Positions 12,646-62,175 of a stretch of 64,000 nucleotides of DNA are shown in pieces (the first letter of the stretch is position 1; each line of letters opens with the position of its first letter). The notes beneath the pieces are model-generated. The model saw only the letters and a list, made by a program, of their open reading frames with translations, did not search any database and was not told the origin of the DNA. The position numbers were made by a program, and so were the translations under genes. The stretch is from Fodinibius salinus. GTDB taxonomy: Bacteria; Bacteroidota; Rhodothermia; Balneolales; Balneolaceae. The DNA lies in NCBI RefSeq assembly GCF_008124865.1, contig NZ_VNHY01000002.1:682001-746000 (forward strand). Direction: 5' to 3'.

Positions 12646-13773
12646 ATGAGTAATAAGACAGAACATATAGCAATTATTGGTGGCGGTATTATCGGTCTGG
12701 GTATCGGCTGGCAGCTGGTACGTCGCGGTGCAAATGTTACAATTTTTGAAAAAGGCAAAATAGGAAAAGAGGCCAGCTGGGTGGCAGGTGGTATGTTAGC
12801 ACCCTATGCCGAGGCGGGGTTTGAAGAGATCAAGCTTATGCGCTTTGGTGAGCAGAGCTTGAACATGTATCCCCGTTTGTTGGATGAGCTTTCTGAGGAT
12901 ACAGATAATGTGCCCGTTCTCGATACCTGCGGTACCCTCATGACCGGTATCGATCGCGATGATACAGAGAAGCTAAAACGTTTGTACGAATTTAGAAAAG
13001 AGTTAGAACTGGATGTAGAACTCTTTACCGGCACAGAAGCCCGGGAGCGCGAGCCGCTGTTGTCACCCAATGTGGTGTCGGGACTGTGGCTGCCTGATGA
13101 TGCCCAGATTGATAACAGAAAGTTGTTAAAGGCGATGGAAAACGCTTTTGAAAAGCTGGGCGGTACTGTCAGAGAGCATACAAAAGTTGAGGAAGTTGAA
13201 ATTAAAAGAGAGACCGCGATGAACGTTATTGCGGAAGAGGAGGAACACGCTGTTGATCAGGTTGTTGTTGCGGCAGGTTGTTGGTCACAACAACTAGCTG
13301 GCATACCTGGTCAGCAGTTACCTCCCATAAGGCCCGAAAAAGGACAAATTTTAACGCTTGAACAAACGGATGATTGCCCGCTCAAAGGAATTATTCGCTC
13401 CCCACGGATGTACCTGGTACCTAAAGAAGATGGTACTATTCGTCTTGGGGCAACAGCCGAAGAGAAAGGGTTTGATAAACGGCCCACTGCCGGCGCGCAG
13501 AAAGAATTGCTGGAACATGGTTGGGAAATGGTTCCGGCTATTTATGAGCTGCCATTGGTAGAAACGGTTGCAGGTCTGCGACCCGCCGGCAAAGATCACC
13601 GACCTATAATAGGAGAAAGTGATATATCGGGATTATATTATGCAACGGGACACTACCGCCATGGAATTATGTTAATGCCGCTAACCGTTTATGCCTTGGT
13701 TAATGAAATATTAGATGAAGAAGTATCGGATTGGCTTGCTCCTTTCCGTCCACAACGATTTAATGCAAATTAG
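12646..13773 (+). CDS. thiO: Glycine oxidase ThiO
   Basis: 375-residue FAD-dependent oxidase making iminoglycine (dehydroglycine) for thiazole synthesis. The N-terminal FAD site is IIGGGIIGLGIGWQLVRRGA (residues about 8-27) with the family's AGGMLAPYAEA following. The C-terminal ATGHYRHGIMLMPLT is the usual closing FAD motif. The use of ThiO rather than the radical-SAM enzyme ThiH signals an aerobic thiazole pathway. It is followed closely by thiS and thiG. Confidence 0.95.
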   Translation: MSNKTEHIAIIGGGIIGLGIGWQLVRRGANVTIFEKGKIGKEASWVAGGMLAPYAEAGFEEIKLMRFGEQSLNMYPRLLDELSEDTDNVPVLDTCGTLMTGIDRDDTEKLKRLYEFRKELELDVELFTGTEAREREPLLSPNVVSGLWLPDDAQIDNRKLLKAMENAFEKLGGTVREHTKVEEVEIKRETAMNVIAEEEEHAVDQVVVAAGCWSQQLAGIPGQQLPPIRPEKGQILTLEQTDDCPLKGIIRSPRMYLVPKEDGTIRLGATAEEKGFDKRPTAGAQKELLEHGWEMVPAIYELPLVETVAGLRPAGKDHRPIIGESDISGLYYATGHYRHGIMLMPLTVYALVNEILDEEVSDWLAPFRPQRFNAN

Positions 13774-13786
13774 TGAAGATATAGTG

Positions 13787-13990
13787 ATGGAATTAACAGT
13801 AAATGGAGAACAGGAAAAGACGGAAGCAGAGACATTACAAAAATTACTTCAGTCTTTTGATATTGAACATAGCGAAAAAGGGGTTGCCGTTGCTGTAAAC
13901 AGCACGGTCATTGCACGAGAGCAATGGCAGGACTGCCAGCTAAACGACGGCGATAAGGTTGAAATAATCCGGGCTACCCAAGGCGGATAA
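13787..13990 (+). CDS. thiS: Sulfur carrier protein ThiS
   Basis: 67-residue ubiquitin-fold sulfur carrier ending in the essential Gly-Gly (ATQGG), which is adenylated and thiocarboxylated to donate sulfur to ThiG. The true start is ATG 13787 (MELTVNGEQE). The frame stays open upstream into the end of thiO, but that extension is not ThiS-like. VNSTVIARE and LNDGDKVEII are typical. No ThiF (adenylating enzyme) is encoded nearby, so activation must depend on a gene elsewhere. Confidence 0.94.
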   Translation: MELTVNGEQEKTEAETLQKLLQSFDIEHSEKGVAVAVNSTVIAREQWQDCQLNDGDKVEIIRATQGG

Positions 13991-14011
13991 ATATAAAAGG
14001 AGCAGATTTTT

Positions 14012-14800
14012 ATGAGTTCATTACAAATTGCTGACCGAGAATTTGATTCTCGATTAATTGTAGGCAGTGGTCGATTTCCCGATCCGGAAACGATGCGCGA
14101 GGCTTTGCGGGCCAGCGGTACCGAAATGGTGACTGTGGCTCTACGCCGTGCCAATCTAAATACGGATGAGGGCGAAAATGTTCTTAAGTATCTCCAGGAT
14201 GACGGCTACTTTTTGCTGCCCAACACGGCTGGATGTTATACCGCCGAAGAAGCTATTACCACGGCCAAACTTGGACGCGAAGCCCTGGGAACCAACTGGG
14301 TGAAGCTGGAAGTTATTGGGGATGACGAAACCCTGTTCCCCGATGTGCCGGAGCTTTTAAAAGCTGCCGAAAAGCTCATTCTTGAGGATTTCGTAGTCCT
14401 GCCTTACGCCAACGATGATCCTATTACCTGCCGTAAATTAGCAGATATGGGGTGTGCCGCCGTGATGCCCTTGGGTGCACCTATTGGTTCGGGGATGGGG
14501 ATCCGAAATCCTTATAACCTGCGCATCATAAAAGACTTGGTGGACGTGCCGGTTATTGTGGATGCAGGAGTAGGAACGGCTTCGGATGCGGCAATTGCTA
14601 TGGAGCTGGGAATGGATGCGGTTTTGATGAACTCCGCAATTTCTCAGGCGAAGCATCCGGTAAAGATGGCTGAAGCGATGAAGAAAAGTATAGAGGCCGG
14701 GCGTCTGGCGTTGGAGTCGGGACGTATGCCTAAGAGGTTGTATGCCAAAGCTTCGAGCCCGGAAGAAGGGCTAATTGAGGTGGATCGTGAAGAACAGTAG
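14012..14800 (+). CDS. thiG: Thiazole synthase ThiG
   Basis: 262-residue TIM-barrel enzyme combining DXP, iminoglycine and ThiS-thiocarboxylate into the thiazole phosphate. Evidence: [28 protein letters not shown], the catalytic lysine in [11 protein letters not shown] near residue 98, [33 protein letters not shown] and [15 protein letters not shown] good ribosome-binding site (AAAGGAG) lies 8 bp before the ATG. Its 3' end overlaps the start of tenI. Confidence 0.97.
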
Positions 14801-15419
14801 TATCAATTTTCGTTATTATTTGATTACGAATCGCAAAGCTCCTGACAAACGATCGCTCTTGGAAACGGTGGAACGTGCTTGTAAAGCCGGAGTGCGGGCT
14901 GTTCAGTTGCGAGAAAAGGATATGACTGATAAATCGCTTGTTGCTTTAGGCAAGAAGATGAGAAGTATTACCAATGAATACAACACCAGGTTGTTTGTTA
15001 ATCGTCGCGCAGATATAGCACAGTTGCTGGACGCTGATGGTGTACACTGTCCTGAGAATGGGATTCCTCCCATGGCTATAAAAAGCAGTTGGCCGAAACT
15101 TACGGTAGGGATGAGTGTACATTCGAAGAAGGCGGCTAAGCGTGCAGAGAAAGAAGGAGCAGACTTTTTGCTTTTTGGGCCGGTGTACTACACGGCATCA
15201 AAGGCAAAATATGGTGATCCGCAAGGAATTAATAAGTTGAAGGAAGTTGCTGAACAGTTCTCAGTTCCGGTTTTTGCTGTGGGAGGGATAACTCCTGAAA
15301 AAGTTGACCCCTGTTTGCAGGCCGGTGCTTTCGGGGTAGCAGGAATTTCAGCAGTAATGAAAGCGGATAATGTGGTTCAACAAGTGAATAGTTTTAAAGA
15401 GCATCTCGGGCAGCTCTGA
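14787..15419 (+). CDS. tenI: TenI-like thiazole tautomerase (ThiE paralogue)
   Basis: Thiamine phosphate synthase-fold TIM barrel of about 210 residues. I choose GTG 14787, preceded by GAGGTGG; a TTG at 14775 is also open. It differs from the true ThiE at 15780: the family's NDR...VHLGQ.D is replaced by [20 protein letters not shown], and the phosphate/pyrophosphate loop is [18 protein letters not shown]. TenI proteins, which aromatise the ThiG product, show the same kind of substitutions and accompany thiO-thiS-thiG in Bacillus. TenI is therefore the better call, though a divergent ThiE cannot be excluded. Confidence 0.75.
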
Positions 15420-15779
15420 ATTGAATTTTGAATTGTACTAGTGGTATTACCAGTAAGAAAGTAAAGTCATTATCCCAGTGAATGTATCTATCTGCGTCAA
15501 CGATTTTGTTATTGGTTATCAGTTATTTGTTCATTGGAAGCTGGAGGTTGGGGGCGTTGGTTGTCCATAGCCCGCTAGCGGTCATCCGTCCACCGTCAGC
15601 GGTTTTACTTTGTAGCTTTGGTGCCCTGTGGTCACTTAACACTTAATCACTAAAATACTAAGGTCACCCACCCAGCCCAGAACTCCGAATATGGCAAACG
15701 CTCATTTACCTGACTACATACCGGGGACAACAAAATAACCACTTTACCAATTAACCAATAACTACACTAGGTACCAGAA
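15420..15779. other. 360-bp non-coding gap inside the thiamine cluster
   Basis: No convincing ORF. It contains short recombined 'words' such as GTTATTGGTTATCAGTTATT (15508-15527), AACACTTAATCACTAAAA and TTAACCAATAACTACAC. A perfect 10-bp inverted pair is GTTATTGGTT (15508-15517) and AACCAATAAC (15753-15762). Another motif is GTCCACCGTCAGCGGT. The region separates thiE from the otherwise tightly packed operon. It may be a decayed repetitive insertion; it could also house a promoter for thiE. Confidence 0.5.
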
Positions 15780-16406
15780 ATGAGAAAGAAGATGTTGCAA
15801 GGAATATACTTAATAACAGATGTGGAAGGGCAAGATCGCTATTCCCACGTTGAGTTGGCAGATGCTGCTTATCGGGCCGGAATACAGATGGTTCAGTATC
15901 GGGATAAGAGACGGTCAGACCGAAAAGTGCTGGCAGAGATTCGAGAGATTATGAATCTCAAAAGCAAAGGGTCGCAGCTGTTGGTCGTAAATGATCGGCC
16001 CGACCTTGCAAAGGTAGGCGGCGCGGATGGGGTACACCTGGGGCAGGATGACCTTCCTATTTCAGAAGTTAAACAGTTTTTGGGAGAGGAAGTTATAGTA
16101 GGCGGAACTTCGGCAAGTTTGGAAGAGGCCCGGCAAGTTGAAAGGGCAGGTGCAGATTATGTGGCATTGGGACACATTTTTGAGAGCTCCACAAAAGAGA
16201 AGCAGTATGCCCCGCGGGGATTGGATACCTTAAGGAGGGTGCGCCAAGAGGTCGAGGTTCCCCTGGTAGCTATAGGAGGAATAACGTTGAAAAATGCTCC
16301 GCAGGTGATTGATGCAGGTGCAGATATAATTGCAGTGAGCTCGGCGATATGCCGGGCAGAAAATCCAGAACAAGCAGCAGCTGAGTTAGTAGAGTCTTTT
16401 CAATAG
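15780..16406 (+). CDS. thiE: Thiamine phosphate synthase ThiE
   Basis: 208-residue TIM barrel that joins HMP diphosphate with thiazole phosphate to give thiamine monophosphate, the ThiL substrate. Canonical motifs are all present: QYRDKRRSDRK, VVNDRPDLA, GADGVHLGQDD near residue 80, VGGTSASLEEA, DYVALGHIFESSTKE and VAIGGITLKNA. These are the catalytic ThiE signature, in contrast with the TenI-like paralogue upstream. It is separated from tenI by a 360-bp non-coding gap and may be transcribed separately. Confidence 0.94.
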   Translation: MRKKMLQGIYLITDVEGQDRYSHVELADAAYRAGIQMVQYRDKRRSDRKVLAEIREIMNLKSKGSQLLVVNDRPDLAKVGGADGVHLGQDDLPISEVKQFLGEEVIVGGTSASLEEARQVERAGADYVALGHIFESSTKEKQYAPRGLDTLRRVRQEVEVPLVAIGGITLKNAPQVIDAGADIIAVSSAICRAENPEQAAAELVESFQ

Positions 16407-57603: not shown

Positions 57604-58530
57604 ATGGCTGAATCCTTAGACGCGATCCGCATAAATCTAGATGACAGTGGTTTGCTGGCAATGAATATTTCGCTGGCAATTATCATGTTTGGAGTGGCAC
57701 TGGAACTTTCTGTCAATGATTTTAAGCGGCTGCTGAATGATCCCAAGCCTACCTTAGTGGGCGTTTTTTCACAGTTTGTGTTGCTGCCTGCACTTACTTT
57801 TTTATTGATATTAGGATTTGAACCAAAGCCGAGCCTGGCGCTGGGTATGTTCATGGTTGCGGCTTGTCCCGGTGGAAATATTTCAAACTTTTTTTCTCTT
57901 TTAGCTGAAGGTAATGCAGCTCTTTCGGTAAGCATGACGGCTATTGCTACTCTTTTTGCCATTGTAATGACCCCCTTTAACTTTACCCTGTGGGCCAGTT
58001 TTTATGAGCCAACAAATCTTATTTTAAAAGATATTCATCTAAATTTGTGGGAGGTTTTTAAGATTGTGGGGCTCATCCTGGGAGTGCCTCTTGTTGTGGG
58101 TATGCTCGTACGGTCTTGGAAAGAGCCACTGGCTGATCAAATATCATCCTGGATTAAAGGATTTGGGATATTGTTTTTTGCCGGTTTTGTATTGGTAGCC
58201 TTTAGTATGAATATTAACAACTTTTTGAATTACGTGCATTTGGTGGTCGGCTTGGTGTTTTTTCACAATGCCTTTGCACTAAGCAGCGGATATGGATTGG
58301 CCTGGCTCTTTAATCTTGACCGCAAAGACCGTAAATCCATTGCCATAGAAACCGGTATTCAAAATTCAGGATTGGGGCTGTTGCTTATCTTTACCTTTTT
58401 TAACGGCCTTGGAGGCATGGCTTTGGTCGCCGCTTGGTGGGGCATCTGGCATATTATTACCGGTCTGGTCATAGGCTGGTACTGGTCAATTGGCAAGTCA
58501 GCCCTGCAGCGGGTATTTCAGAAGGCTTGA
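57604..58530 (+). CDS. Bile acid:sodium symporter (BASS) family transporter
   Basis: 308-residue membrane protein with about nine helices. Family features: LAIIMFGVALELSVNDFKRL near 28, LGMFMVAACPGGNISNFFSL near 83 and AIETGIQNSGLGLLLIF near 255. These are the two crossover regions binding Na+. The substrate could be bile-acid-like, pantoate or other organic anions; not decidable. Followed by an AT-rich 300-bp intergenic region. Confidence 0.92.
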   Translation: MAESLDAIRINLDDSGLLAMNISLAIIMFGVALELSVNDFKRLLNDPKPTLVGVFSQFVLLPALTFLLILGFEPKPSLALGMFMVAACPGGNISNFFSLLAEGNAALSVSMTAIATLFAIVMTPFNFTLWASFYEPTNLILKDIHLNLWEVFKIVGLILGVPLVVGMLVRSWKEPLADQISSWIKGFGILFFAGFVLVAFSMNINNFLNYVHLVVGLVFFHNAFALSSGYGLAWLFNLDRKDRKSIAIETGIQNSGLGLLLIFTFFNGLGGMALVAAWWGIWHIITGLVIGWYWSIGKSALQRVFQKA

Positions 58531-58747
58531 TCCATATTAAAAATCCTCTATTTTGCAACGCTGTCAGGATCCCGAATTTCGACAAGATTTGATATTTGAA
58601 TCTCATTTCTCCATCTTTTTCCTGTACGTGCTATAATAATATCTGTAGAGAGAGGAGGCTTGTATGTCCCGCAAGGTTAGCAAAAATACTACCACCACAT
58701 TTATTTTTTTACTCTAGATCAACATCCATTGATTTGACCCCCTTTAT
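58531..58747. other. Intergenic region before the duplicated lipoprotein unit
   Basis: About 217 bp of AT-rich DNA without a convincing ORF, terminator or RNA structure. TATAATAATATCTG (around 58631-58644) could be a promoter element; nothing more can be supported. Confidence 0.4.
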
Positions 58748-58834
58748 GTTTGGGATTACGCATATTATAATGAATACCAAAAATATTTCTGTGATTACTT
58801 TACATTACAACAATCAATATAATCAACTATCATT
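58748..58834 (+). promoter_or_regulatory. Leader of propeller lipoprotein copy 1 (duplicated)
   Basis: TATTATAATGAATACC near 58763, TTCTGTGATTA near 58787 and ATAATCAACTATCATT directly before the ATG recur before copy 2 at 60169-60246. Conservation of this untranslated segment across the duplication suggests a shared promoter and ribosome-binding region. Confidence 0.5.
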
Positions 58835-60022
58835 ATGAGACGACCAATACAACTAGCGACCTTATTTTTGACCATCCTATTGGTGGCGGCTTGTGGCGAT
58901 GACGGCCATAGCCCGACCAATGGCAACAACAATGACGACCCCACCGGGGCACTGGAAGTGACCGCCAACAACACCGGTGACGACATTGACGCCGACGGCT
59001 ATACCGTCAGTGCGGGCGGGGCCACCAAGAGCATGCCTTCGTCGGGCAGGGTAACCTTGGCCGGCCTCTCCGAAGGGGACGTGGATGCCAAGCTGTCCGG
59101 GATCGCCGGCAACTGTTCGGTCAACGGCAGCAATCCCCAAACGGTGACCATTACGGCCGGAGATACCACCTCCACCTCCTTTGCCGTGAGCTGCCAGACC
59201 GTGGCCGACGGCCAAATTGCCTTTATCAGCGACCGGGACGGGGACGGGGAAGTCTTCCTGATGAATACCGACGGCTCCTCACCGACGAAACTCACCGACA
59301 ACTCCGACACTGATTTTGCCGGGCCGATTTCTCCGACCGGCACCAAAATTGCTTTTGTCAGTGACCGCGGCGGGTCTACAACTCACCTGTATGTGATGAA
59401 TGCTGACGGGTCGAACGTCCAGCAGCTGACATCCTCGGGAGCGAGTGTGAATCTATTACTAGCAGGGATTAGCTGGTCGCCGGACGGTTCCACTCTGGCT
59501 TTTGTGGACAGCCGCAGCGGGAATGGGGAAGTTTATACGATCGGGGCCGACGGCAGCGGCGAGCAGCGGCTGACCAACAACAGCGCAACGGATACCTGGC
59601 CCCACTGGTCACCGGACGGCTCCAAGATTCTCTATGCCAGCGATACCGACGGGGATTATGAGATTTACACCATGAATACCGACGGGACCGGCCGCCAGCA
59701 GCTCACCACCGACAGCGATAATAATGGTATGGCTCGTTGGTCCCCCGATGGCAGTAAGGTAGCCTTTGCCAGCAACCGTTCAGGGAACCTAGAAATTTAC
59801 ACCATGAACCCTGACGGCACCGGCGTGCAGCAGGTAACTAGCGACCCGGGGTCGGATGAGTTCCCCAGCTGGTCGCCGGATGGCAGTGAGCTGGCCTTTT
59901 ATACTGACCGTGCTGGGAATGATGAAGTGTATAAAATTAATGCTGACGGTAGCGGGATTCCGACTAACCTGACGGCCAACAACGCCAGTGACGTTAACCC
60001 CTACTGGAGCCCGGTGGAGTAA
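58835..60022 (+). CDS. TolB-like beta-propeller lipoprotein, copy 1
   Basis: 395 residues. Signal peptide with lipobox VAACG (Cys20). A beta-sandwich-like domain with conserved NC and SC cysteines spans about 38-125 (TGDDIDADGYTVSAGG, SGIAGNCSVNGSNPQTV). Then come about six PD40/WD40-like blades, each with WSPDGSKIAF-type and EIYTMNTDGTGRQQLT-type strands, ending YWSPVE. It lacks the N-terminal domain of true TolB. The gene is rich in GAC/GCC/ACC codons, unlike its neighbours. Duplicated 224 bp downstream. Probably a surface or periplasmic binding protein; ligand unknown. Confidence 0.85.
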   Translation: MRRPIQLATLFLTILLVAACGDDGHSPTNGNNNDDPTGALEVTANNTGDDIDADGYTVSAGGATKSMPSSGRVTLAGLSEGDVDAKLSGIAGNCSVNGSNPQTVTITAGDTTSTSFAVSCQTVADGQIAFISDRDGDGEVFLMNTDGSSPTKLTDNSDTDFAGPISPTGTKIAFVSDRGGSTTHLYVMNADGSNVQQLTSSGASVNLLLAGISWSPDGSTLAFVDSRSGNGEVYTIGADGSGEQRLTNNSATDTWPHWSPDGSKILYASDTDGDYEIYTMNTDGTGRQQLTTDSDNNGMARWSPDGSKVAFASNRSGNLEIYTMNPDGTGVQQVTSDPGSDEFPSWSPDGSELAFYTDRAGNDEVYKINADGSGIPTNLTANNASDVNPYWSPVE

Positions 60023-60054
60023 ACGACGGACCATTTTTTCGAATAATAACTTTT

Positions 60055-60090
60055 ACCCGCAGTGGCATCACAGCCGCTGCGGGTTTCTTT
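60055..60090 (+). terminator. Terminator of lipoprotein copy 1
   Basis: 12-bp stem ACCCGCAGTGGC (60055-60066) and GCCGCTGCGGGT (60073-60084), one T-G pair, six-base loop, then TTTCTTT. An almost identical hairpin ends copy 2. Confidence 0.85.
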
Positions 60091-60168
60091 ATGTTTATTT
60101 ATCAGCTATGAGCATTCTCCTATGCTTATAGCTACGATATGTCACTCATTTGAGCTCATTTTGTTCAG

Positions 60169-60246
60169 AATCACGTATATAATAATGAATACTACAGAAG
60201 TAGTTCTGTGATTATCCTACATTCATTACAATAATCAACTATCATT
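60169..60246 (+). promoter_or_regulatory. Leader of propeller lipoprotein copy 2 (duplicated)
   Basis: AATCACGTATATAATAATGA near 60169, then GTTCTGTGATTATCC and ATAATCAACTATCATT just before the ATG, aligned with the copy 1 leader at 58748-58834 with several substitutions and small indels. Confidence 0.5.
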
Positions 60247-61434
60247 ATGAGACGACTAATACAACTATCGACCTTATTTATGACTTTGCTATTGGTGGCT
60301 GCCTGTGGCGATGACGGCCCAACCAATGACAATAATAATGATGACGACCAGCCCACCACCGGGGCGGTGGAAGTGACCACCAGCAGCACCGGTGATGACA
60401 TTGACGCCGACGGCTACACCGCCAGCGCCGATGGGGCAAGCAAGAGCGTATCGTCGTCGGGCACCGTGATCCTGGCCGGCCTCTCCGAAGGGGACGTGAA
60501 TACCGAACTGTCCGGCATCGCCGGCAACTGCTCGGTCAGCGGCAGCAACCCCCAAACGGTGACCATTACGGCCGGGGATACCACCTCCACATCCTTTACC
60601 GTGGAGTGCCAGGCCGTGGCTGATGGCAAGATTGCCTTTAGCAGTAACCGCGACGGGGATACGGAGGTGTTCCTGATGAATACCGACGGCTCGTCCCCGA
60701 CGAAACTAACCGACAACACCGCCGCTGACTTTGCCGGACCCATTTCTCCCGACGGCACCAAGGTTGCCTTTACGAGTGACCGCGGGGGTTCTACGACCCA
60801 CCTGTATGTGATGGATGCCGACGGGGCAAATGTCCAGCAGTTGACGGCCGCGGGAGCGCAAGTGGTTCCGACAGATATAGCCAGCTGGTCCCCGGACGGT
60901 AGCGAACTGGCCTTCGTGGACAGTCGCAGCGGGAATAACGAAATTTATACGATCGGGGCCGACGGCAGCGGGGAGCAGCGGCTGACCAACAACAGCGCTC
61001 GTGATGCCTTCCCCCACTGGTCCCCGGATGGTTCCAAGATTGTCTATGCCAGCAATACCGACGGGGACTATGAGATTTACACCATGAATCCCGACGGGAC
61101 CGGCCGCCAGCAGCTCACCAGCGATTCTTATAATAATGCCACGCCCCGGTGGTCGCCGGATGGCAGTACAATTGTCTTTGACAGTAACCGTTCAGGGAAC
61201 CAATTGCTTTATACGATGAACCCCGACGGCACCGGCGTGCAGCAATTGACTAACGACCCGGCGACAGATGCCTACCCCAGCTGGTCCCCGGACGGCAGTG
61301 AACTGGCCTTTACCTCTTACCGCGATGGGAATGGGGAAATCTATAAAATTAATGCTGACGGCAGCGGAATTCCGACTAACCTAACGGCCAACGGCGCCGG
61401 TGATCTTATTCCTTATTGGAGCCCGGTGGAGTAA
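60247..61434 (+). CDS. TolB-like beta-propeller lipoprotein, copy 2
   Basis: 395 residues, the same length and nearly collinear with copy 1; by eye most positions are identical. Lipobox VAACG at the signal peptide end; beta-sandwich domain (TGDDIDADGYTASADG); six propeller blades with SWSPDGSELAFVDSRSGNNE-type repeats; terminal YWSPVE. Differences cluster in the linker after the lipobox (DDDQPTTGA) and in blade loops (residues about 200-210 and 325-345), where ligand contacts would lie. The GC-rich codon pattern is shared. Suggests recent duplication with diversification of the binding face. Confidence 0.85.
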   Translation: MRRLIQLSTLFMTLLLVAACGDDGPTNDNNNDDDQPTTGAVEVTTSSTGDDIDADGYTASADGASKSVSSSGTVILAGLSEGDVNTELSGIAGNCSVSGSNPQTVTITAGDTTSTSFTVECQAVADGKIAFSSNRDGDTEVFLMNTDGSSPTKLTDNTAADFAGPISPDGTKVAFTSDRGGSTTHLYVMDADGANVQQLTAAGAQVVPTDIASWSPDGSELAFVDSRSGNNEIYTIGADGSGEQRLTNNSARDAFPHWSPDGSKIVYASNTDGDYEIYTMNPDGTGRQQLTSDSYNNATPRWSPDGSTIVFDSNRSGNQLLYTMNPDGTGVQQLTNDPATDAYPSWSPDGSELAFTSYRDGNGEIYKINADGSGIPTNLTANGAGDLIPYWSPVE

Positions 61435-61467
61435 ACGACGGACCTATTTTCCCGTAGGATACTTTGT

Positions 61468-61505
61468 ACCCGCAGTGGCGTCGTAGCTGCTGCGGGTTTC
61501 TTTAT
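61468..61505 (+). terminator. Terminator of lipoprotein copy 2
   Basis: ACCCGCAG (61468-61475) pairs with CTGCGGGT (61490-61497), followed by TTCTTTATG. Homologous to the terminator of copy 1, including flanking TAAACGACGGACC just after the stop codon. Confidence 0.82.
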
Positions 61506-61797
61506 GTTTAATCTTTTTCCTGGAGAGGTGATCGACACATAAGCAATGTACTGATCGGGATAACCTTTATATATTAGTTTGTTGGCATTGGTTATTCTGC
61601 CTTCCTGACCGAATGAAAAGGTTATCCCAGGTAAATAGGTATTAATAAACGTTCTACATTTATCAACATTTTGTTTCAAGCGTGGATGCGTAAAAACAGC
61701 CCAAGACAGCGGGAATTATACTCCCGAATAGTTGTCCTATATTGAGTGCAGTAAAGTGAGGGGAATGGCTTCTCCTTTATGTTTATGTGGTAAATAC
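61506..61797. other. Intergenic region downstream of the duplication
   Basis: About 290 bp with no gene. A small hairpin CGGGAATTATACTCCCG (near 61708-61724) could belong to transcription termination from the leftward yraN side. No other signal seen. Confidence 0.4.
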
Positions 61798-62175
61798 TTA
61801 TCGCCCTGGTCGAAACGCATTTTCATAGTGCGAAATGTCTGGAGCTTGCCCCTTTTGTTGTAAGATACCAATCACATCAAAGCGAACAGGAGCCCCGTCC
61901 ATTTTGCGTTCATACAGCCAGGCCTCGGCGGCCTTATAGACATTGGCAATCTTTTCATCATCCACATATTCTTCAGGTTCACCAAACTGATTGGAAGAAC
62001 GGGTTTTTACCTCCACAAAGATAATGTAGGCTTCATTATCATAAGCGACGATATCCACCTCAGCATGTTCAAAATGGTAGTTACGCTCCAGGATAGTGTA
62101 TCCTTTGGATTCCAGATAAGCGGCGGCCAGCTCTTCGCCCTCATCGCCAATTTCGCGGTTGGATTTATTACTCAT
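61798..62175 (-). CDS. YraN/UPF0102 family nuclease-fold protein
   Basis: 125-residue PD-(D/E)XK-fold protein. The core EVDIVAYDNEAYIIFVEVKT contains the family's Asp and Glu-x-Lys, preceded by GEELAAAYLESKGYTILERN. Often proposed as a Holliday-junction or endonuclease-like protein, but function is unproven. Its start overlaps the end of the GbsR-like gene by 8 bp, so it is co-transcribed. Confidence 0.92.
   Translation of the reverse strand: MSNKSNREIGDEGEELAAAYLESKGYTILERNYHFEHAEVDIVAYDNEAYIIFVEVKTRSSNQFGEPEEYVDDEKIANVYKAAEAWLYERKMDGAPVRFDVIGILQQKGQAPDISHYENAFRPGR

Follow-up and report, generated by a model that had tools for sequence, protein, structure and literature searches.

Families of surface lipoproteins that recombine with one another exist, for example in Borrelia and in mycoplasmas. 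A passage in PMC5266723 describes domain exchange among surface proteins of Porphyromonas gingivalis. The lipoprotein family described here, represented by a tandem gene pair in a window of 64,000 nucleotides of the Fodinibius salinus genome, resembles these systems in that paralogs swap segments and carry differing outer domains on a common anchor. It differs from them in that all assembled copies have intact frames with leaders of their own, and by showing no silent cassettes, no single expression site and no sign of phase variation. An antigenic-variation system with one expression site and truncated silent cassettes does not fit the assembled copies, which are all full-length open frames with their own leaders.

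With PD40/TolB-type propellers (PF07676) the units share five PD40 repeats above cut-off and a fold onto which the TolB propeller superposes at 2.0 Å. They differ in being predicted lipoproteins with a CnaB/transthyretin-like stalk, in scoring below the TolB equivalog cut-off and in forming a multi-copy family. The predicted stalk fold (Z 7-9) resembles the CnaB/prealbumin-like stalks of bacterial surface adhesins such as SdrD, UafA and pilins, although here it would be held by a Gram-negative-type lipoprotein anchor and belongs to no convincing Pfam family. FecI-FecR ECF sigma systems have a counterpart in F. salinus as well, where a TIGR02985 sigma gene, FecR and a CarboxypepD_reg/TonB-plug protein are clustered and a promoter-like element occurs inside the cluster and at nearby lipoprotein genes; unlike in the known systems, the predicted targets include dispersed propeller lipoproteins beyond the local operon. 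The pair is genuine, and the reading preferred here takes it as one array within a dispersed family that recombines with itself, its members alike in anchor and stalk but with TolB-like propellers that differ.

The tandem pair and its family

Two head-to-tail frames of exactly 395 codons each, copies A and B, lie between a symporter gene and a UPF0102 gene (Table 1). The first-pass annotation had described them as a whole-unit tandem duplication, and this proved real: leader, gene and a terminator hairpin of 12 pairs are all doubled head to tail, in units of 58732-60097 and 60148-61510 that are 81% identical over 1381 columns. With a dS of 0.48 and a protein identity of 79% between the copies, this is not a very recent event. 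The leaders are AT-rich (30-32% GC), and only the coding parts are GC-rich. In the pair region the Rfam search gave no match, sigma-70-type promoter matches occurred at chance level only and PADLOC found no defence model.

Table 1. Features of the tandem pair, its flanking genes and family copies elsewhere in the genome (window positions, or contig and start where a contig is named)
Feature	Location	Strand	Basis or remark
Flanking sodium/bile-acid symporter gene (SBF)	57604-58530	+	Pfam SBF E 3.9e-37
Copy A leader	58732-58834	+	Repeat boundary; promoter element of other family copies deleted
Copy A, 395 aa lipoprotein, PD40 six-bladed propeller	58835-60022	+	
Copy A signal peptide, lipobox LLVAAC (Cys20)	58835-58894	+	Read off translation
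Copy A stalk	58943-59200	+	CnaB/transthyretin-like by homology with copy B (alignment and copy B domain model)
Copy A propeller	59207-60019	+	Pfam PD40 E 1.7e-46; aligned to copy B model
Copy A terminator, also upstream boundary of unit B	60055-60084	+	Hairpin; repeat D10
Copy B leader, same deletion as copy A	60148-60246	+	Leader alignment, repeat boundary
Copy B, 395 aa lipoprotein, PD40 six-bladed propeller	60247-61434	+	
Copy B stalk	60355-60612	+	AlphaFold2 pLDDT 93.2; best Z 9.1 = SdrD
Copy B propeller, TolB-like	60622-61431	+	AlphaFold2; TolB 1crz superposition
Copy B terminator	61468-61497	+	Hairpin
Flanking UPF0102 (YraN) gene	61798-62175	-	Pfam PF02021 E 3.9e-29
C3a	C3:197365		
C3b	C3:198828		Tandem with C3a
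C1a	C1:969839	-	
C2s	C2:291		
C4e	C4:337463		Stalk duplicated

That the pair belongs to a larger family was borne out by a search of the rest of the genome, which found further copies dispersed at other loci. The close family comprises seven assembled copies, A and B included, with 62-100% protein identity to B. The five outside the window (C3a, C3b, C1a, C2s and C4e) are full length, and two distant relatives, C1b (46%) and C3e (31%), are present in the same genome. Units occur both singly and in tandem, and every assembled copy is a full-length open frame with its own leader. Contigs C3 and C4 each end 33 nt into a further copy, with leaders 99% identical over 116 nt, and the ends of contigs C1 and C2 have in common 99 nt from the 3' side of that copy. 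Such overlaps are the usual signature of collapsed identical copies, from which we infer two, X1 and X2. Gene order in the congeners G004 and G008, where a conserved reductase-like gene lies near the sigma locus or a C3e-like gene, suggests that the true arrays would be C3e-X2-C1end and C4e-X1-C2s. The total would then be about nine close-family copies (seven assembled, two inferred) at five loci, plus the two divergent relatives. Four assembly breaks, at the contig ends of C1, C2, C3 and C4, fall within family copies, so that copy number is underestimated from assemblies of this kind. C4e (L066 15464-16921) encodes 485 aa with two stalk domains in tandem, 87% identical in DNA, which suggests that it arose through stalk duplication.

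The site in the window is lineage-specific. The same symporter and UPF0102 flanks are found in seven congeners, none of which has the pair between them, and the pair is therefore a derived insertion or replacement. Between these flanks two congeners have a gap of 51-56 bp and five have a frame of ~420 codons (L164-L168), acyltransferase-like by eye, which may have been replaced by the lipoprotein pair in F. salinus. The C3a/C3b locus is syntenic with the locus that holds the congeners' own family genes, and adjoins a Ser/Thr kinase gene and a TIGR02999-type ECF sigma gene. Genes for a TIGR02999 ECF sigma factor and a large Ser/Thr kinase (TPR) flank two family loci (L063 10074-13499; L065 9117-14943), and kinase-sigma pairs of similar type flank family genes in congeners. 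The congeners' syntenic locus (L082, L084, L085, L086, L088, L091) is a lipoprotein-rich variable region with repeated lipoproteins carrying collagen-like EGPxGPxGP stretches and, beside propeller genes, lipoproteins with PDSGPPGT (IPT-like) segments.

Exchange and variation among copies

The clearest case of exchange is C3b. Its identity to C1a is 90-100% per 50 columns from L063 ~8589 to ~9188, a stretch that takes in the preceding unit's terminator, the leader and the stalk, and about 40-78% thereafter, the drop falling near L063:9188-9200, at the stalk/propeller border. Protein trees place the propeller of C3b beside genes of the sister species G003/G005 (support 1.0) and its stalk beside C1a inside the F. 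salinus clade (support 0.93-0.99), and GC3 shifts from 0.77 to 0.33 at the same border. Judged by alignment, tree and composition, C3b is a chimera with leader and stalk as in C1a, a propeller orthologous to the sister-species genes and a switch at the domain border; it is the only clear-cut chimera among the copies. A PHI-like site-compatibility test gave p about 0.001 both with and without C3b. The coding sequence of copy A, moreover, is 87% identical to that of C3a, which lies on a different contig, and 81% to that of its neighbour B, despite which the leader deletion is common to A and B only, among the aligned copies. An orphan family terminator stands upstream of C1a, as if C1a had been cut out of an array. 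The chimera, the PHI-like signal, the conflicting leader and coding histories of A and the orphan terminator, as read from the aligned sequences, together show exchange among loci, for which homologous recombination would be the mechanism. Copies would be added by the copying of array segments to other places in the genome and by unequal exchange within tandem arrays, and ectopic gene conversion would hold the anchor halves similar to one another without erasing the differences between propellers. We regard it as likely that the pair forms one array in a lipoprotein family which has expanded in this lineage, is dispersed and recombines with itself.

Each four-stranded blade points its AB and CD loops to one face and its DA and BC turns to the other. 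Amino-acid differences between A and B affect 35 of 88 loop sites (AB and CD), 20 of 114 strand sites and 3 of 62 turn sites (DA and BC). The first-pass statement that differences concentrate in blade loops thus holds for one propeller face and not for the other. The same order was seen across six GC-rich paralogs, with 2.74 residues per site in the AB and CD loops, 1.35 in the DA and BC turns and 1.63 in the strands (permutation p 5e-5). When mapped to sites, the substitutions between A and B, estimated at 109 non-synonymous and 98 synonymous, were not uniform: dN/dS, 0.28 overall, was 0.53 in the AB and CD loops, 0.09 in the DA and BC turns and 0.16 in the strands, and even the highest class quoted, the CD loops with 0.73, stayed below 1. 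By these estimates selection on the pair is purifying. The proposal that the copies are diversifying can be kept in so far as the loop variation suggests a diversification of the variable propeller face; positive selection, with dN/dS below 1 everywhere, cannot be claimed. The loop bias is also present, less strongly, among orthologs of different species (1.5-2.3x vs 2.1-3.7x), and is therefore partly relaxed constraint.

These values have to be weighed against our reading, since a plain tandem duplication with relaxed loops, yielding ordinary paralogs without functional diversification or selective exchange, would equally give a dN/dS of 0.28 and values below 1 in every structural class, and would agree with orthologs that also change mainly in loops. 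It does not account for the dispersal of the copies, the recombination signal, a chimera breakpoint that sits at a domain border or the conflict between leader and coding histories, and we hold it to be possible but doubtful.

Codon composition and the question of transfer

GC3 is 0.69 in A and in B and 0.34-0.52 in all other major ORFs of the window, in agreement with the annotation's remark on GC-rich third positions unlike those of the flanking genes. This is 5.7 SD above the host sample (0.404 ± 0.050; 103 ORFs from eight other genome stretches, a 159-kb sample). Third positions are raised only in Gly, Ala, Thr, Ser, Pro, Val, Asp, Asn and a few other codons. For Phe, Ile and Tyr, GC3 is 0.24, 0.27 and 0.40 in the family, 0.24, 0.26 and 0.33 in the host and 0.48, 0.53 and 0.55 in the GC-rich congener G001. 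Within the units, GC3 is 0.76-0.83 in the stalk versus 0.33-0.69 in the propeller.

The composition had been taken as a sign of recent transfer. A cassette recently acquired from a GC-rich donor, then multiplied and drifting towards host composition, would explain the raised GC3, and in codon usage the family has a correlation of 0.79 with G001 and a lower one, 0.58, with the host. Synonymous changes among copies, counted for the raised amino acids, went from S to W 62 times and from W to S 23 times; this drift to AT leans towards decay from a GC-richer ancestor and fits simulated decay over stationarity, if weakly, as parsimony bias could give much of it. A first simulation had given a clearer decay signal, which became weaker when limited to the raised amino acids. 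No donor was found, however. Outside the species the family is matched best by congeners (55% and 53%), and none of 296 phylum genomes held a closer relative. The viral contig collection contained no relative and the plasmid collection no close match, with only PD40 relatives below 50% identity among the matches listed, and a GTDB-wide scan with narrow peptide patterns found three distant loci only. Congeners hold the family at a syntenic locus, the host-like third positions of Phe, Ile and Tyr would not be expected of a GC-rich donor and differ from those of G001, and the leaders are AT-rich. Inspection by eye of the ORFs adjoining the copies recognised no gene resembling a transposase or an integrase. 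The transfer idea is possible, although weaker than the annotation held, and we consider a recent acquisition unlikely.

GC-biased gene conversion could be invoked for a family that is multi-copy and recombining and whose most homogenised part, the stalk, has the highest GC3, but recent synonymous changes go to AT and not to GC, the Phe and Ile codons are spared and converted leaders are still AT-rich, which makes it quite improbable as the source of the rise. Ordinary high-expression codon choice is disfavoured by the GC3 of the host ribosomal/RNA polymerase region (0.29-0.40). None of the three causes considered for the GC3 (transfer from a GC-rich donor, conversion biased to GC, codon choice linked to expression) agrees with every observation. 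This odd pattern, GC-rich for some amino acids and host-like for Phe and Ile, is a puzzle for the use of GC3 as a sign of gene transfer. As for the first-pass interpretation overall, dispersal, derived site, GC3, one-face loops and architecture were supported, and recent transfer as such and diversification in the sense of positive selection were not.

Predicted protein architecture

Copies A and B are alike in having a lipobox signal peptide, an acidic/Asn linker, a domain of ~85 residues and six PD40 blades of ~44 residues. By eye, both show the lipobox LLVAAC with its +1 Cys and are predicted lipoproteins. The residues from this Cys on are CGDDG, acidic at +3/+4 but lacking a preceding K, Q or S; the surface-exposed lipoprotein (LES) signal of Bacteroidetes, tested in other genera, is C-X-K-(D/E)2 or SDDDD-like after the Cys (PMC5080379). 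PD40 was matched in five stretches of each copy, with 155.7 (A) and 160.5 bits (B) vs a cut-off of 20.9. The AlphaFold2 model of copy B, built with 17 family sequences, had a mean pLDDT of 89.9, and its propeller superposed on E. coli TolB (1crz) with Z 35.8 and an rmsd of 2.0 Å over 263 residues. TolB chains aligned over the propeller only (model residues 126-395). Modelled alone (pLDDT 93.2), the N-terminal domain was CnaB/transthyretin-like, with SdrD at Z 9.1 and CnaB2 and other prealbumin-like domains at Z 7-9; the structure matches listed for it include no TolB row, an absence that is not decisive. The Pfam search of this domain gave no family at a convincing score. The unit is thus predicted to consist of a lipobox anchor, a CnaB/transthyretin-like stalk and a six-bladed TolB-like propeller. 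That the copies might be TolB paralogs acting in the Tol-Pal system, as the propeller fold could suggest, is very hard to maintain with 224.0 (A) and 228.8 bits (B) against the NCBIfam TolB equivalog cut-off of 343.15, a predicted CnaB-like stalk where the N-terminal domain of TolB would be, a lipobox and many dispersed copies.

The family would instead be made of binding proteins anchored in the outer membrane that present a variable propeller face. The surface recognition family proposed in the annotation is compatible with this predicted architecture, exposure and ligand being inferred.

Regulation

A promoter-like element, TTAGGGGTA-N13-TGTGTATAA, is found in the leaders of most family copies outside the window. 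Its exact form occurs six times genome-wide, always before family members including C3e (reversed control 0), and C3b and C4e have degenerate versions. In an alignment of ten leaders, a gap of ~75 nt takes the element out of A and B; the best match to it in the copy A leader has 6 mismatches. Two further sites, each with two mismatches, stand before lipoprotein-like genes, one of which comes right after a FecI-like sigma gene. A third such site, found with a relaxed pattern, was discounted as being at chance level. The FecI-like sigma gene (TIGR02985) is followed in its cluster (L067 8732-14423; G000:C3:336731-342422) by the lipoprotein-like gene, FecR and a CarboxypepD_reg/TonB-plug protein, with the element inside the cluster. 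Cluster and element recur together in three congeners. Orthologs of the sigma factor in G004, G006 and G008 (68-70%) have the element, with 1-4 mismatches to the strict motif, before the gene following sigma; in G006 and G008 another lipoprotein-like gene is preceded by it too, as is a C3e-like PD40 protein in G004. The congeners' family copies are without it, and the predicted regulon membership of the family is therefore specific to F. salinus.

The distribution of the element supports the view that the family at large was drawn into a putative FecI-like ECF sigma regulon in F. salinus. This ECF sigma/FecR/TonB-plug envelope-signal system probably activates, through the element, the majority of copies outside the window; the window pair has lost the element by deletion and is probably expressed independently of the FecI-like system. 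More tentatively, and with the odds rather against it, the copies may form a kit of surface lipoproteins, spread over the chromosome, in which ectopic conversion repeatedly re-pairs one anchor-stalk with different propeller heads under a common FecI-like sigma signal, some arrays such as the window pair having been released, so as to give a head-swapping surface diversification in free-living bacteria. If true, gene conversion would here diversify surface proteins module by module, and their genes would have been both recruited into an ECF sigma regulon and, in part, freed from it. The copies offer a natural series for studying the re-pairing of anchor and head modules.

Elsewhere in the window, a thiamine-biosynthesis-like cluster was seen by eye at 12646-16406, with two adjoining ThiE-like frames at 14775-15419 and 15780-16406.
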